IMG/VR virus record: IMGVR_UViG_3300042338_000041
Coordinates: 1 to 45,916 of that record
Length of the DNA: 45,916 nt
Strand: one strand, 5' to 3'
Origin: a virus
Of this stretch, positions 24,584 to 30,823 are shown piece after piece. The position numbers were made by a program, and so were the translations under genes. Numbering within the stretch: the stretch's first letter is position 1; each line of letters begins with the position of its first letter. Below the pieces are notes generated by a model. It made no database searches, was not told the origin of the DNA, and worked only from the letters and a program-made list of their open reading frames with translations.

Positions 24584-25840
24584 TTAGGCAGTTACAGCGT
24601 ACTCTGCACCGAAGCCAGAAGTACCAAAGATAGCAGCTAGCAAAGCGCGAGTATTAATCTCGGCAGACTCATTAGCAGCAGCAACGCTGGTAGTACCAAC
24701 GAGAAGCTGGCAAAGTTCTGGACGGAGGATACCAGTACCCTTTAGCATACTTGCTACGGTAAACTGGGTGTTGCGACGAACATCCTGTACAGTATCAACC
24801 TTCATTCCCTGTAAGGATAGACCAGCAATTGCTTCTGGCTGGAAGATCATACCGAAGATGTTTACAGTGTTGCAAACTAGGTTGTACTTAGCCATACCAA
24901 TTGAAGCACCAGTAAGGTCAACACGAGGAATGTGGTTGGTCTTGATGATCTTGACGCCCATGTAATCAAGGGTATCAGAGAGCTGATTCATACCAACGCT
25001 GATTGGCGCACCAGCACCGTACTCATCATTACCAGTGAAGAGTGGATTATTTCCATAGTTATTAGTAGCGGCAACTACGTTAGATGTACCAACAACACCA
25101 GCACTTGTAACAGCAGTAAATGCTGAACGAGGAATACCAAGCGCACGAATGACTTGGAAAACCTTTGGAGTTACAGCGCAATAAACATTCTGAACAGGGA
25201 AATCATTCTCTTGCATAAATACAAGATAGTTTTCGATTGCCTGTAGAATGTTAAGTGCAGCTGTTTCAGTGCAGCCACTAACAGCAACACCAATAGCTGA
25301 AGTAGTAGTATCAACAACTACTGGAGCGGGGAAGTTTGCTGCTGTAAAATTACGGGGATCTGAAGCAAGTGGAGCCACTACGCTAGCAGCAATGAGAGTA
25401 GAAACAATCTGACGGTCACGGGTGTTAGCGAGCTGTACACCAGTCTGACGAGCTAGTTCTGAGCGGTAATCCCACTGACTAATAAGCATGTCGATGTTAT
25501 CTGTCTCAAAGTGAGCAGCCATTGGACGAGCATCAAGGTTTACCTTGAAGGTGGTTGAAGTTGAAGCACCACCACCAAGCTCAATACCAGCATTCCAAGA
25601 TGGGTTTAAAGTGACAGTACCAGTAACTGGGAACTCATAAGAGTAGCCGCCAGTAAGACTCTTGGTTGTGATTAGATTTTCAAATACATTGTACTGATCG
25701 TAAGTATTGATTACTTCACCAGACCAGAGTGGTAGCCAAAGCTTGTTAGCTCCTGCTGCTCCACCTGCTGTAGCTGCACTTATTGATGTACGCTGTAGTG
25801 CAAAATCGCTTGCTCCAATATTATCGCCTGAAATTGGCAT
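24584..25840 (-). CDS. Major capsid protein (T7 gp10-like)
   Basis: A 418-residue protein that forms the icosahedral shell, somewhat longer than T7 gp10A. It has no signal peptide or membrane segment and is rich in Ala, Thr, Val and Asn. Segments such as NVYCAVTPKVFQVIRALG and the C-terminal LRPELCQLLVG are in keeping with HK97-fold podovirus capsids. The gene sits directly after the scaffold gene and before a strong terminator, as in T7. The ATG has an AAGGA ribosome site. Its leader (25841-26016) is unusually long for this compact genome. Confidence 0.92.
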   Translation of the reverse strand: MPISGDNIGASDFALQRTSISAATAGGAAGANKLWLPLWSGEVINTYDQYNVFENLITTKSLTGGYSYEFPVTGTVTLNPSWNAGIELGGGASTSTTFKVNLDARPMAAHFETDNIDMLISQWDYRSELARQTGVQLANTRDRQIVSTLIAASVVAPLASDPRNFTAANFPAPVVVDTTTSAIGVAVSGCTETAALNILQAIENYLVFMQENDFPVQNVYCAVTPKVFQVIRALGIPRSAFTAVTSAGVVGTSNVVAATNNYGNNPLFTGNDEYGAGAPISVGMNQLSDTLDYMGVKIIKTNHIPRVDLTGASIGMAKYNLVCNTVNIFGMIFQPEAIAGLSLQGMKVDTVQDVRRNTQFTVASMLKGTGILRPELCQLLVGTTSVAAANESAEINTRALLAAIFGTSGFGAEYAVTA

Positions 25841-25995: not shown

Positions 25996-26018
25996 AATCC
26001 GTTGTCTCGGAACGGATT
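25996..26018 (-). other. Hairpin at the end of the scaffold gene
   Basis: A perfect eight-base-pair stem (AATCCGTT / AACGGATT) with a seven-base loop overlaps the scaffold stop codon. No T-run follows, so it is unlikely to be an intrinsic terminator. It may protect the upstream mRNA 3' end or be a processing site. Confidence 0.45.
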
Positions 26019-26940
26019 ATTTGGGTAGTTTTGTAAAGTCGGTTCGTAACATCCGCTGTTCAACATATTCGCGGAACTTTGGATTAAGTTCAAACCGTCT
26101 ATCATTCCGCTCAAACATGAACTCTCGCTTAGTTTGGTAAGCGGTAATTCCTTGCTGAGTGCTTGCCATTGGAACTTGTCCTCTGGCTGTTTGTTTTGGT
26201 TCAGCAGCCTTGCTTGTCCCTGTAGCCTTGGCAAACTTTGCCTGTAGGCCATAGAGAGCAACATCCCAAGAAGGTGATGCGAGGTTCTGATTGATTGCAT
26301 TCTGTTCGGCTTGGGTAAGATTCTTACTTGCCCAATCAAACATCTTTGCTAGTTGATCCTTTCCACCAATAAGCTCAGCAGCCTTGCTATAAGCAATCTC
26401 TAGCTTTGCCTTTTGACCTATCATATATTCACTAATAATAGATTCTGGTAGATTGGTCTTCTTTTTAATCGTGTCTAGAGTTTCAGTAGATAGATTATTA
26501 TTAGTAGCGAACTCAACAGTCCACTGCTTCCAATCATCTTCGGTAGCAACAGCTGGAGTTTCAGCTTTAACTTCTTCTACCTTCTTCTCTGGAATCTTCA
26601 GAACTTCTGGTACGACAGGAATCTCTTCCTTTGTTGGAGCAGCTTCCTGTTTGACTGGGTTTGCTGTAGTGGGATTCTGCTCGTACTTCTTCTTTAGATC
26701 TGCTACTTCCTGCCGTGACTTGGTGTATTCCTTTTGAGCAGTCTTAAGACTTTCAAACCAAGCTCCTGCGTCCTTAAAGTTTTCAGGAACAGCCATACCT
26801 TGGTTTCTTACATAAGCGTCAAAAGCAGCCTTCTCACGGGAGAGAATAGCATCCTCTGCTGTCGATGTAAGAGATTGTTCCTGTGATACTACTGGAGTCT
26901 CGTAAGATTGTTCCATCATATCGGGAGTCTCTTCATTCAT
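26017..26940 (-). CDS. Capsid assembly scaffolding protein (T7 gp9-like)
   Basis: The product is 307 residues, the same length as T7 gp9, acidic at its N-terminus and rich in Glu, Gln and Lys with long helical segments, as expected for a scaffold that shapes the procapsid and then leaves. The C-terminal region is Arg/Phe-rich (ERNDRRFELNPKFREYVEQR), fitting the capsid-binding end of scaffolds. It lies immediately upstream of the capsid gene. The ribosome site is weak (GAAAG). Confidence 0.85.
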   Translation of the reverse strand: MNEETPDMMEQSYETPVVSQEQSLTSTAEDAILSREKAAFDAYVRNQGMAVPENFKDAGAWFESLKTAQKEYTKSRQEVADLKKKYEQNPTTANPVKQEAAPTKEEIPVVPEVLKIPEKKVEEVKAETPAVATEDDWKQWTVEFATNNNLSTETLDTIKKKTNLPESIISEYMIGQKAKLEIAYSKAAELIGGKDQLAKMFDWASKNLTQAEQNAINQNLASPSWDVALYGLQAKFAKATGTSKAAEPKQTARGQVPMASTQQGITAYQTKREFMFERNDRRFELNPKFREYVEQRMLRTDFTKLPK

Positions 26941-27480: not shown

Positions 27481-29295
27481 TTATCCTGTGGTGAGGGCTT
27501 GGAGGGTGGCGTTTGGAAGGTTGGTTGGCCACACCTTCACCTGCCGAATCCAGCCATACGGTCGCAGAGCTGGTGACGCATCAATGTAAAACTTCAGCGC
27601 GTTGATTCCGCTGAGTGTCCCCGCCGCTTGTGCCGGATTGCTGACGGTTCCGCCGTTTCGACAAGCAGCCGTGTTGCTTGTTCCCGGAGCAAACGCGATT
27701 GCCGTCTTGAATCGCTGCGATGCACCAGTTGGAGATACCGTAATAGAACTGACTCCATCCACAATTGCCACATCCCGACGCAAAGACACGCGATTGGAGG
27801 ATGTTTGGCTTCCCAAGCCGTTTCCAAGTTCAATTCCACCGTTTGCATTTGCCAATGCGGAGTGCGTGATGTCTGCAAACAGCGTTCCAGTCTGCGTGGA
27901 TGCGCTGTACCAAGACGAGAAGTTTGTCCCGTCCATATAGCAGGTATCCTCTGCCCTGCTCCCCTGACTTGCCCCGCTCGGGATGTACGAGGATGCGCCA
28001 GCACCCGCCTCAAGTTGTGCGCCCCAAATGTAGACACCGCTTCCGGTGGTTCCGGTGTATGAGGTAGTTGTCCCGTCCGTTGAAAGTCGGAATTGAACAT
28101 TGATGTTCGTCAGCGTTGGAGTTCGCACCACGATGCGATACCAGTTGTCCGGATATTTTGTGATCGCTGAAACACCAACAGCCGATTCTGAAACAACTGA
28201 TCCGCTACCGGAAAGGTTGAACATCCCGAATGCGCCGCTGCCGCCGTTATCAATGATTTGGATGTGCTGCCGTTCGGCAGCCTTCACAAATGCAGAGATC
28301 GTGTAGACGCTTGAAGTCAACGATGAGTAGACAATCAGCGGAGCGTGTAATCCAGCCGCGTTTGTTTCCTGAATTTTCACCACCGTGGTACTGATTCCCG
28401 CCGGATTGGTTGTCGTTACTGTTCCGCGAGTGGTATTTAGAGCCGAGAAATTCCAATTGTTTGCCGCGCCTGAAGTCTCAAATGACTCACTCCAGTAGAA
28501 CAGATTGCTCGCGCTTCCCTCAATCAGCAGCCCGCGAGGCGTGGGCGGCGTAGTGGTGGGGTCGTAGTCGAAGCGGGGGGCTTGGTAGACGGTCGTGGTC
28601 GTTCCGTAGTACGGCGATGCGGTTGTTCCGGCATTCATCTGCACGCCCCACATGAACAGCGTTGTTCCAGATGTTGGCGTTCCAGCCGTGTCCGGATAGA
28701 ACAGCAATGAACCACCGGAAACTGGAGCAGTCAGCACAATCTGGATCAGCGTCCAAGTGGTAGTCAGATTCGTAATCGAGAACAAGGTACTACCAGAAAT
28801 CGTCGCCGTTCCACCTGACACCACGGAACAGGTTCCCGTCTGGAAACTTACATTGAAGTATCCAACGTCAATCCTCGTGGCCGTACCTGCGCGGATCCAA
28901 AAGCGAATCGTGTGCGGCACTCCAGATGTAATGGTCGGGCTTTGAAAAACTGCGCCGTTTGCATTTCCAGCCGTCACTCTGGATGATGTTGGCCCACCGA
29001 TTGGGTTTGTTGTTGCAACATCGAGAACCTGTACAGTTCCTCCTTGAATAGTCCACGGTGACGTTTGCAGAGACTCGCTCTGTCGAATCAAGTTCGCATC
29101 GGCATACTGCACGTACCCCTGCGAGTTGATGAAGGTGGCGTTGGTGCTGCGTGTAAATGTTAGGCGTGGGTCAAGTATTCCTGTAGTAAAATCTAATGAC
29201 AAAGTAGAACCATCCCCACCTTCAGCTGGAAGCAAACGATTTCTTTGCGTTCTCCACTCAGGGGGATCTAAAGTCCAAGAACGAAATCTATGCAT
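27481..29295 (-). CDS. Head spike/fibre protein with tandem carbohydrate-binding-like domains
   Basis: A 604-residue product. After a short N-terminal piece it has LDFTTGILDPRLTFTRSTNA (about residues 34-53), the hallmark of proteins annotated as phage head spike fibre domain. Two related beta-sandwich modules follow: the first runs from NLIRQSESLQTSPW to FMWGVQMNAG and the second from NLFYWSESF to YIWGAQLEAG. A lectin-like C-terminal domain comes last. Likely role: binding host-surface or environmental glycans. Bases 27481 to about 29170 are strikingly GC-rich (sample lines 53-63% GC against about 35% next door), while the first 35 codons match the rest of the phage. This suggests a fibre acquired by recombination onto a native anchor. 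Confidence 0.78.
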   Translation of the reverse strand: MHRFRSWTLDPPEWRTQRNRLLPAEGGDGSTLSLDFTTGILDPRLTFTRSTNATFINSQGYVQYADANLIRQSESLQTSPWTIQGGTVQVLDVATTNPIGGPTSSRVTAGNANGAVFQSPTITSGVPHTIRFWIRAGTATRIDVGYFNVSFQTGTCSVVSGGTATISGSTLFSITNLTTTWTLIQIVLTAPVSGGSLLFYPDTAGTPTSGTTLFMWGVQMNAGTTASPYYGTTTTVYQAPRFDYDPTTTPPTPRGLLIEGSASNLFYWSESFETSGAANNWNFSALNTTRGTVTTTNPAGISTTVVKIQETNAAGLHAPLIVYSSLTSSVYTISAFVKAAERQHIQIIDNGGSGAFGMFNLSGSGSVVSESAVGVSAITKYPDNWYRIVVRTPTLTNINVQFRLSTDGTTTSYTGTTGSGVYIWGAQLEAGAGASSYIPSGASQGSRAEDTCYMDGTNFSSWYSASTQTGTLFADITHSALANANGGIELGNGLGSQTSSNRVSLRRDVAIVDGVSSITVSPTGASQRFKTAIAFAPGTSNTAACRNGGTVSNPAQAAGTLSGINALKFYIDASPALRPYGWIRQVKVWPTNLPNATLQALTTG

Positions 29296-30029
29296 TATAA
29301 TACTCCGTAGAAAGCGTTAGCTGAATTGGCTGCTGTTGCTGCTCCGTGAAAGAACTCAACTTCAACAAGCTCACAACCAAGAGTATCTACTAATACAAAA
29401 GCAGTATCTAGAATACCAGTAGCATTGTAAATTTTACCATCACCATTTAATTTTACAATTGTTTGAGGCACATTAAAATTAGTAAATGCTCTAACATCAA
29501 AAGTAATGGCGCCAAGTGTTGCATGATTTACACTTGCAGTAAACTGAGTACCAGAGTTAATAGCTGTAATTGTTGGTGTTGCGCCAAAAGCGCCAGCACC
29601 AGATGTTTTAACAAGAGTTTGTCCAACTTGTAAACCAGCAGTACTTGCTACTGTTACAACAGCAGTACCTGTAGCAAGAGTAGCTGTTAAACCAGTTGCG
29701 GATAAATAATCAAAGTTGTTAGCATAAAGGGTAGCTTGACCTTCAAACAACAACTGAGGAATCTGAGTTGGTGGATTTGAATTAGTCTTAGAATAACCAG
29801 TTACTTTAAATTTAATAGGAGAAGTTAATCCAGAACTAGCAAAAACAGGAACTAGTTTCACATAGTTTAAACTTGAGTTTGGAATAATAATAGCACCAGC
29901 AGATGTAGCAATACTAGTTGTTGGTTTATTAGCCCCATAAGCATTCATAACTGAAAGACTTGTTGGAGCAAGAAGTTTCATAGGATCTTGCGCTGTCTTT
30001 AGTTGTGTCATTGTGTGTGTATGAATCAT
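29295..30029 (-). CDS. Putative virion surface protein, 244 aa
   Basis: The start overlaps the stop of a tiny basic gene as ATGA, with an AAGGA ribosome site, and the gene hands over to the head spike gene by TAATG. The product is Thr/Ala/Val/Gly-rich and beta-like, with an Ig-like stretch (TAVVTVASTAGLQVGQTLV) near its middle. No signal peptide or catalytic motif is seen. Coupling to the head spike suggests a capsid decoration protein or spike base. The family is not recognised. Confidence 0.65.
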   Translation of the reverse strand: MIHTHTMTQLKTAQDPMKLLAPTSLSVMNAYGANKPTTSIATSAGAIIIPNSSLNYVKLVPVFASSGLTSPIKFKVTGYSKTNSNPPTQIPQLLFEGQATLYANNFDYLSATGLTATLATGTAVVTVASTAGLQVGQTLVKTSGAGAFGATPTITAINSGTQFTASVNHATLGAITFDVRAFTNFNVPQTIVKLNGDGKIYNATGILDTAFVLVDTLGCELVEVEFFHGAATAANSANAFYGVL

Positions 30030-30151
30030 TTCTTTTTCTTCCTTTTTGTTTTAGGAAGCTTGCCCTTTGGTGTTTCTTTTTGCCACCGGGCAGCTATCTT
30101 TGGATGTACAGCGTACATAAACTTTTGTTGTTGACGAGATTTGAATGGCAT
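30026..30151 (-). CDS. Small basic phage protein, 41 aa
   Basis: ATG at 30151 overlaps the preceding stop as TAATG, and the TGA overlaps the next ATG. The product starts MPFKSRQQQKFMYAVHPKIA, then ARW and a Lys-rich end. Near-identical short proteins (PFKS...QQ.FMYA..PKIA..W) are widespread in marine phages, so I regard it as real. Function unknown; a DNA-associated or head-internal role would fit its charge. Confidence 0.75.
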   Translation of the reverse strand: MPFKSRQQQKFMYAVHPKIAARWQKETPKGKLPKTKRKKKK

Positions 30152-30387
30152 TACTCCCACCTTACTTGCTTACCACTCTTTTTGGTGCGAACACCTTTAG
30201 CAGTACACATTGATTTGGTTGGGCGACAGGCAGGATACTTCCTACCTTTTTCGCTTGCGCTCTTACGGCCACATGGTTTACCTGTTTTGCAGTCGATCCA
30301 ACCTTTTCCGTTGTTTCGTGCAAACCAACCATGTAGCCCTTTCTTTTTCTCAAGAGAGAAGTCCGCTTTCTTTTTCTTTTTAGCCAT
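30151..30387 (-). CDS. Basic Cys-containing protein, 78 aa
   Basis: Coupled on both sides by TAATG. It opens with MAKKKKKADF, contains GLHGWFARNNGKGWIDCKTG and GRKYPACRPTKSMC, and is strongly positive with four Cys. Proteins with this GWF...WIDCKTGKPCGR pattern are common in marine phages and some large viruses. The function is undefined; a small metal-binding or nucleic-acid-binding virion protein is a fair guess. Confidence 0.78.
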   Translation of the reverse strand: MAKKKKKADFSLEKKKGLHGWFARNNGKGWIDCKTGKPCGRKSASEKGRKYPACRPTKSMCTAKGVRTKKSGKQVRWE

Positions 30388-30524
30388 TACTTTTTCTTCT
30401 TGGATTTGCTACCCCACTTTGCAGCACCGACTTTACGGCACTGAACCAAAGCACCTGAGGCATAAGCCGAAGGCCACTTCTTATAGCGGGATTTTACTTT
30501 GCGATAACATGCATCTTTAGCCAT
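30387..30524 (-). CDS. Small basic phage protein, 45 aa
   Basis: A 45-codon ORF with TAATG overlaps at both ends. The product runs MAKDACYRKVKSRYKKWPSA, then YASGALVQCRKVGAAKWG and a Lys-rich tail. This W-P-S-A-Y-A-S-G-A-L pattern recurs in short proteins of many marine phages, which supports it as real. Two Cys and high charge resemble its neighbours. Function unknown. Confidence 0.75.
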   Translation of the reverse strand: MAKDACYRKVKSRYKKWPSAYASGALVQCRKVGAAKWGSKSKKKK

Positions 30525-30823
30525 TATTTTTTACACTTTCTACCTTTTGGACATGATGTCTTAGACTTACCGGGTCCACCCCAGAGATCTTTACATGCCC
30601 AGTATTGTGCAGAAAGTTTATTTTTTGCAGATCCACACTTATGTCTTGCACGAAAAGACTTACGAGCACCAGCACTATAATTATTACCATAGCCTGTTGC
30701 TCCGTAATGAATAATCTTTTCTTGTCCATTAGCACAAGCTTTTACCACACGCTTCTTAGCGGGGTTAGGAGACTTGCGTGGTTGATTGCAAGGCATACTA
30801 GCTTTGTTTACTTTCTTAGCCAT
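30524..30823 (-). CDS. Basic Cys-rich protein, 99 aa
   Basis: Starts directly on the portal stop (TAATG). The product is highly basic with seven Cys spread along it, including ACANG, HKCGS, YWACKDLWGG and a final SCPKGRKCKK. The middle YGNNYSAGARKSFRARHKC is shared with short proteins of other marine phages. Spaced Cys pairs could bind zinc. It heads a run of four tiny basic genes between portal and surface protein. Function unknown; binding of packaged DNA is a possibility. Confidence 0.78.
   Translation of the reverse strand: MAKKVNKASMPCNQPRKSPNPAKKRVVKACANGQEKIIHYGATGYGNNYSAGARKSFRARHKCGSAKNKLSAQYWACKDLWGGPGKSKTSCPKGRKCKK

Follow-up and report, generated by a model that had tools for sequence, protein, structure and literature searches.

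The window analysed here is a 45,916-nucleotide (nt) stretch of viral DNA, positions 1 to 45,916 of the IMG/VR virus record IMGVR_UViG_3300042338_000041, in which four very small genes form a string next to the portal gene (Head-tail_con, PF12236; 30823..32427), all on the minus strand. Following the portal gene, they encode a 99-residue protein (module D; 30524..30823), a 45-residue protein with the motif WPSAYASGALVxCR (module A; 30387..30524), a 78-residue protein with the motif WF..GKGWxDC..GKPCGR..YPACRPT (module B; 30151..30387) and a 41-residue protein with the motif MPFKS..Q.FM.A.HP.IA..W (module E; 30026..30151). On the same strand they are followed by a gene for a 244-residue protein (29295..30029) that weakly matches the virion structural protein family phrog_6005. 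This order and its stop–start overlaps agree with the sequence-only reading of the DNA: one base is shared (TAATG) at each of the first four junctions, and four bases (ATGA) are shared between E and the 244-residue gene. The string lies within the head gene block, because genes for a tail or head-spike fibre protein (27481..29295; NF048003 domain, phrog_5939), a scaffold (26017..26940; phrog_1052 head assembly, phrog_1018 scaffolding) and the major capsid protein (24584..25840; phrog_267), all on the minus strand, lie further on. The spike-fibre gene has a G+C content of 0.53, compared with 0.40 for the window, which suggests recent exchange.

The strong basicity and the cysteine content described in the same reading are also borne out. 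The ratios of Lys+Arg to Asp+Glu are 25/2 (D), 15/1 (A), 25/5 (B) and 15/1 (E), and three of the four proteins contain cysteine (six residues in D, two in A, four in B and none in E). Nine small open reading frames (ORFs) of the window exceed a net charge of 0.2 per residue; four are D, A, B and E, and the remaining five all overlap larger ORFs. The window genes are thus small, basic and placed among head genes, between the portal and the scaffold. On the plus strand, an open frame of 171 codons lies opposite the string (30005–30520) and is probably a shadow of the string's Lys-rich codons.

All four genes are under purifying selection, which is weakest on E. Pooled pN/pS values, calculated after omission of gapped, short, minus-strand and more than 97% identical matches, were 0.169 for D (80 comparisons), 0.203 for A (151), 0.154 for B (35) and 0.397 for E (28), with 0.124 for the portal (32); by this measure, A, B and D show the evolution of genuine proteins. 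The four had been proposed to form one set, and this grouping held in part. In a dereplicated sample of 38 portal relatives among the matches listed, each with at least 1 kb downstream, at least one of D, A, B and E follows the portal in 35, A and B occur together in 30, all four are present in 16 and none in 3. The gene order varies, with D A B and D E A B in nine relatives each, D A B E in seven, D E and A D B in three each, D alone in two, and A B D and A B in one each.

The modules match or resemble orphan families. D matches phrog_7595 over most of the model (E-value 4.6e-15, positions 8–96 of 96), is also related to phrog_220, and resembles DUF5754 weakly (14.1 bits, below the Pfam cut-off of 27.4). 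DUF5754 appears under the name Tlr6F in papers on algal viruses (PMC12220804, PMC4642659), one of which describes a conservation that spans phages, giant viruses and Polinton-like viruses, with no known function (PMC4642659). The first part of the DUF5872 model is matched by A (21.3 bits, model 11–45), itself a relative of phrog_727, and the second part by B (17.3 bits, model 38–89); a single protein in which A and B are fused (A=B; fused modules are joined here by an equals sign) matches the model at 12–99, and none of the three reaches the 27.5-bit cut-off. In the window, these two parts are separate genes. A further module, C, corresponds to the Pfam family DUF6321, above the cut-off in gp114 of the T4-like cyanophage Syn9 and in gp137 of the cyanophage S-CREM2; none was found in the window, and in other phages C holds the place of D.

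Structure prediction added little to these assignments. The AlphaFold2 model of D (pLDDT 76.9) consists of a hairpin and two helices. Its sequence has no relative in the PDB, Foldseek found no PDB match to the model at E ≤ 0.001, and VIA-align returned a best Z of 2.1, with no convincing solved structure. Against BFVD, the D model matched the Tunisvirus protein V9SE36 (E 2.8e-3) and ORF125 of Vibrio phage ICP1. The model of an A=B protein is of low quality (pLDDT 62.4), with an A part that looks like a helical hairpin, and structure searches with A+B and with C gave weak matches to designed proteins and nothing else.

We built module profiles from the window and fetched relatives, and collected loci by searches with the portal, A, B, C, D, E or an A=B protein, keeping the best 80 matches of each; L-numbered labels denote individual loci or records. 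The 516 loci formed 312 dereplicated groups, after exclusion of six pieces (L001 and parts of S-CREM2 and S-SM1), with modules sought within the stretch read and three groups having none. Because the best 80 per search were kept, the totals describe this collection and are not a survey. A and B occur together in 191 of the 312 groups (best 80 per search), of which 101 also contain C, 63 contain D, 27 contain neither and none contains both. On these profile matches, A, B and either C or D form a recurring, widespread set of orphan modules in which C and D replace each other. Phages that infect cyanobacteria, roseobacters, Pelagibacter and Flavobacterium all include carriers of members of this set. 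E could not be retained as a general member, as 60 of the 91 E-bearing groups (best 80 per search) have none of A–D in the stretch read. In phage HTVC106P, the D gene comes after an M15 peptidase gene and is grouped with other small hypothetical genes, A-like and B-like ones among them. Prochlorococcus phage P-SCSP2 has A, B and C as separate mini-genes, and Roseobacter phage CRP-235 has D; two podophages with a D gene (L003 and L006) have groEL and groES genes close by.

Each module has one near-invariant pair of cysteines (99/94% in A, 100/100% in B, 98/96% in C and 99/99% in D). Two further cysteine columns reach 59–62% in D, 44% in B and 37–38% in C, and D additionally has a histidine conserved at 90% or more. 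A zinc finger in each module is not favoured, since two, not four, cysteines are near-invariant in each. Unification of C and D in one family was likewise set aside, the hhalign result of 50% over 18 columns being suggestive only. At L464 (1210–1569), close to an E gene, a single short protein looks like a hybrid, D-like in one half and C-like in the other.

In T4-like cyanophages and in other phages, the modules are parts of longer proteins. Syn9 gp114, encoded between two terminase genes, has 443 residues, of which 109 are Lys or Arg, and contains B, A and C. Among the loci collected (best 80 per search), we counted 69 B=A=C ORFs, 21 A=B, 10 B=A, 7 A=C, 7 A=B=D and 3 A=D, in addition to others. 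Two mini-modules accompany them: F, found in 106 groups and in 99 of these within the same ORF as A–D, and G, found in 47 groups and in 27 of these within such an ORF. In the IMG/VR loci L388 (5005–6315) and L426 (4996–5565), an insertion splits the A motif between WPSAYA and SGALVKC; by eye it looks intein-like, with a Cys start and a TPNHKW motif. No Pfam family was found in the L388 protein, and the A=A=B arrangement is shared by L422.

The fused proteins contain sites that resemble those of a head protease. In phage T4, the internal proteins IPI, IPII and IPIII are small, basic and packed in the head; a leader of 10–19 residues brings the internal proteins into the prohead and is freed by the protease gp21, which cleaves after L/I-x-E (PMC9026906). 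The pattern [LIMV].E[AGSK] occurs within 20 residues before a module at 133 of 294 fused positions, compared with 41 of 216 distal linkers and a mean of 34.6 (maximum 55) in shuffled controls. The excess persists after thinning at 0.7 similarity (74/152; shuffled 19.8, maximum 32; distal 16/106) and at 0.5 (29/65; shuffled 8.4, maximum 18; distal 7/39), and another version of the test gave 151/305 versus 37.8. In nine gp21-bearing records, [LIMV]xE lies within 24 residues upstream of 23 of the 27 modules. Protease-like sites are thus enriched just before fused modules, as judged from motif counts that, like those of leaders, are not independent because the sequences tested are related.

A longer form of the site, aromatic-x-x-W-…-L/I/M-x-E, was counted in 32 ORFs with modules (total length 1,501 units of 100 residues; 21 of 249 groups) and in 34 other ORFs (12,768 units of 100 residues). 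Leader-like starts are also present: by eye and without a count, leaders such as MKFSEWLELRE directly precede A in several A=B proteins. The N terminus of T4 ipII and ipIII is MKTYQEFIAE, and small F and G proteins begin with its near copies MKSFKQFFTE, MKTFKQYFLE or MKTFKQFQE. A strict leader pattern is present in 17 of 857 module ORFs (16 groups) versus 32 of 31,823 other ORFs, 27 of these 32 having one common ..GDFNG.. sequence by hand count. It sits on F and G and hardly on A–D: the 13 distinct leader-bearing module ORFs shown comprise nine G, three F and one D. In 20 of 64 A=B=C groups, the ORF directly downstream has a targeting-like start. At L304, L305, L315 and others, a short gene that begins at about 6223, after the fused B=A=C, often opens with a sequence like MKSFQQFLSE, which resembles the T4 capsid targeting sequence, and from this start it is likely to encode a second internal head protein.

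By PF03420 or a three-sequence profile, 10 of 23 records with fused modules gave a match to the head protease gp21, compared with 0 of 23 with separate genes, the window record included (Fisher, ~0.0003), a split that is confounded with lineage and genome size, contains some near copies (L375–L377 have identical module sequences) and uses labels assigned with the module lists in view (L427 and L443 as separate, S-SM1 as fused by eye from its sequence, and some 'separate' records having D without A and B). Outside both sets are the C-only L343 (gp21 found), L364 and L366 (gp21 not found), and L435, which has gp21 although its A and B genes are not fused; placing L435 among the separate-gene records makes the comparison 10/23 versus 1/24. 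Among the fused records, PF03420 was searched in 15 of 23 and the gp21 profile alone in 8; all 23 separate-gene records were searched with PF03420, PF04586 and PF14550, with 0/23 positive, and 19 also with the gp21 profile. The protease-search sets (42, 37 and 39 records) were hand-picked, not random, and many of the records are fragments. In these sets, PF04586 was absent from 42 of 42 records and PF14550 from all 39 except ICP1. A search of 30 records for gp23 gave five positives, each of them fused and with gp21; a PF16903 capsid search matched no record and is hence uninformative. Thirteen of the 23 fused records, eight of which are 85–381 kb in size, gave no gp21, XkdF or gp23, so that they are either fragments lacking head genes or phages with another kind of head. 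One of them, L377 (165 kb), has its A=B gene among amidoligase, phosphoesterase and glycosyltransferase genes. The window record (G000), which may be partial, matched none of PF03420, PF04586, PF14550 and the gp21 profile.

A connection between D and a head protease is found in ICP1, in which ORF125 has an XkdF protease domain (36–160) followed by a D-like domain (184–261; phrog_7595, 5.8e-11). A review names Gp125 as the protease of capsid assembly (PMC9040626), and the D-like tail on this enzyme implies that the D domain is probably carried into ICP1 proheads on the protease. In the window, by contrast, D has a gene of its own, and the record gave no XkdF match. The protease-like sites and the presence of D on a capsid protease would fit equally well with proteins of an assembly core, which enter the prohead, balance the charge of the scaffold or nucleate assembly on the portal, and are gone before or during DNA entry. 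The location of the genes between the portal and the scaffold and capsid genes is in keeping with such a role, and T4 IPIII affects head assembly (PMC9026906). However, the virion proteins published for S-CREM2 include two module proteins (PMC10665884), and we consider an assembly-core function unlikely.

The S-CREM2 data provide the virion evidence from homologues. CsCl-purified virions were reported to contain 52 proteins, including gp160, with seven unique peptides, and gp137, with four (PMC10665884, Table 3). In our scan of the S-CREM2 genome, A–D modules occur only in these two proteins, gp160 (B and A, and also F) and gp137 (C); with 52 of 219 proteins found in virions, the chance of detecting two of two module proteins is roughly 0.06. 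The adjoining gp136 is also virion-listed and has a targeting-like start under a loosened pattern. Residues 17–70 of gp160 match the major head protein family phrog_696 (4.8e-10), and the N-terminal stretch of gp160 (L207, 28342–29235) resembles the arm of the phage's own major capsid protein (GFTGAAAPEGPVAGYDPLM versus GFTGAAAPGGPNAGFDPVM). This match appears in none of 249 other groups, and a shared capsid-arm motif was dropped as a feature specific to S-CREM2 gp160. Module matches in S-P4 and S-B43 fall under features named 'structural protein', with no basis for the naming given.

The authors of that study note that some of the virion-listed regulatory proteins may be carry-over (PMC10665884), and if this applied to gp160 and gp137, the modules could be ordinary intracellular binders of RNA, DNA or ribosomes with no virion role. 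Their small size and high basicity are compatible with such binders, as is the position of the D gene in HTVC106P. For S-SM1, 41 proteins were detected in virions (PMC3037559). The S-SM1 counterpart of gp114 (SSM1_115) is named 'hypothetical', and neither its record nor that of Syn9 gp114 carries a virion label, as would be expected of an intracellular protein. Proteins rich in Lys and Arg are easily missed by trypsin-based methods. Purely intracellular proteins would have no reason to carry sites like those of a head protease or starts like targeting sequences, or to be fused to a protease as in ICP1, and we regard this explanation as very unlikely.

Head-packed proteins could alternatively act in the new host after injection, for example by inhibiting defence or in takeover, with their charge merely aiding loading. 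T4 IPI acts against a restriction enzyme (PMC9026906), and the S-CREM2 virion evidence fits an injected effector as well. However, a set that spans phages of cyanobacteria, roseobacters, Pelagibacter and Flavobacterium would be unexpected for host-specific counter-defence, and Tlr6F/DUF5754 is reported in algal viruses too (PMC4642659), so that an effector role appears improbable.

Collectively, these results favour, with moderate confidence, the reading that A, B and D are small, basic, head-packed proteins that act like the internal proteins of T4. The sequence-only reading had suggested that all four window proteins could be packed in the head and bind DNA. For A, B, C and D, packing is supported through their homologues, by the S-CREM2 virion mass spectrometry, the protease-like sites, the leaders, the ICP1 fusion and co-occurrence; E is loosely attached to the set. 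Because fused relatives carry apparent targeting and protease-like signals and were detected in the virions of one phage, the window modules are probably head-packed too. In the proposed mechanism, A, B and D, and in the window lineage perhaps E, would be made together with the portal, packed inside the head, placed among the DNA and probably ejected with it. In T4-like phages, the modules would enter the prohead either joined in one polyprotein or behind a short leader, and the head protease would separate the polyprotein modules after [LIMV]-x-E. Since no head protease was recognised in the window record, its modules would be encoded ready-cut, as overlapping mini-genes. We infer packaging in the window phage, location inside the head, cutting at the sites and ejection from these comparisons. 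The task in the head would most likely be to hold or neutralise DNA; binding or condensing of DNA through charge may be expected of the modules, and DNA binding as their main task, predicted from charge and occurrence across hosts, is a prospect that we rate a little below even.

The comparison with T4 has definite bounds. F and G starts are near copies of the T4 leader, and A–D were compared with the T4 proteins by leader only. The window proteins begin with MAKK (D), MAKD (A), MAKK (B) and MPFK (E), differing from the T4 proteins, whose leader ends in a gp21 site, and the window record also differs from T4 in that no prohead protease was recognised in it. Because neither a leader nor a protease was found for the window genes, we propose that their products work like T4 internal proteins, not that they are such proteins. 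A further contrast with T4 is that the module set recurs over many hosts.

More broadly, we tentatively suggest that A, B and C or D may represent a shared, head-packed kit of genome companions, extending from podophages to T4-like phages and, via Tlr6F and DUF5872, to algal giant viruses and Polinton-like viruses, and encoded as a polyprotein where a head protease is present and as overlapping mini-genes where it is not. We rate this wider proposal as possible but less than even. A limited literature search found no published link between these families and head packaging. The proposal would tie together as one kit three orphan families found in DNA viruses, DUF5754/Tlr6F, DUF5872 and DUF6321, and with the virion detection and the protease-like sites it leads to a direct question: are these proteins in the head, cut as predicted and bound to DNA? 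If the proposal is true, the kit would give three orphan families a common virion function, and the polyprotein and the mini-genes would be two solutions to one head-loading task.
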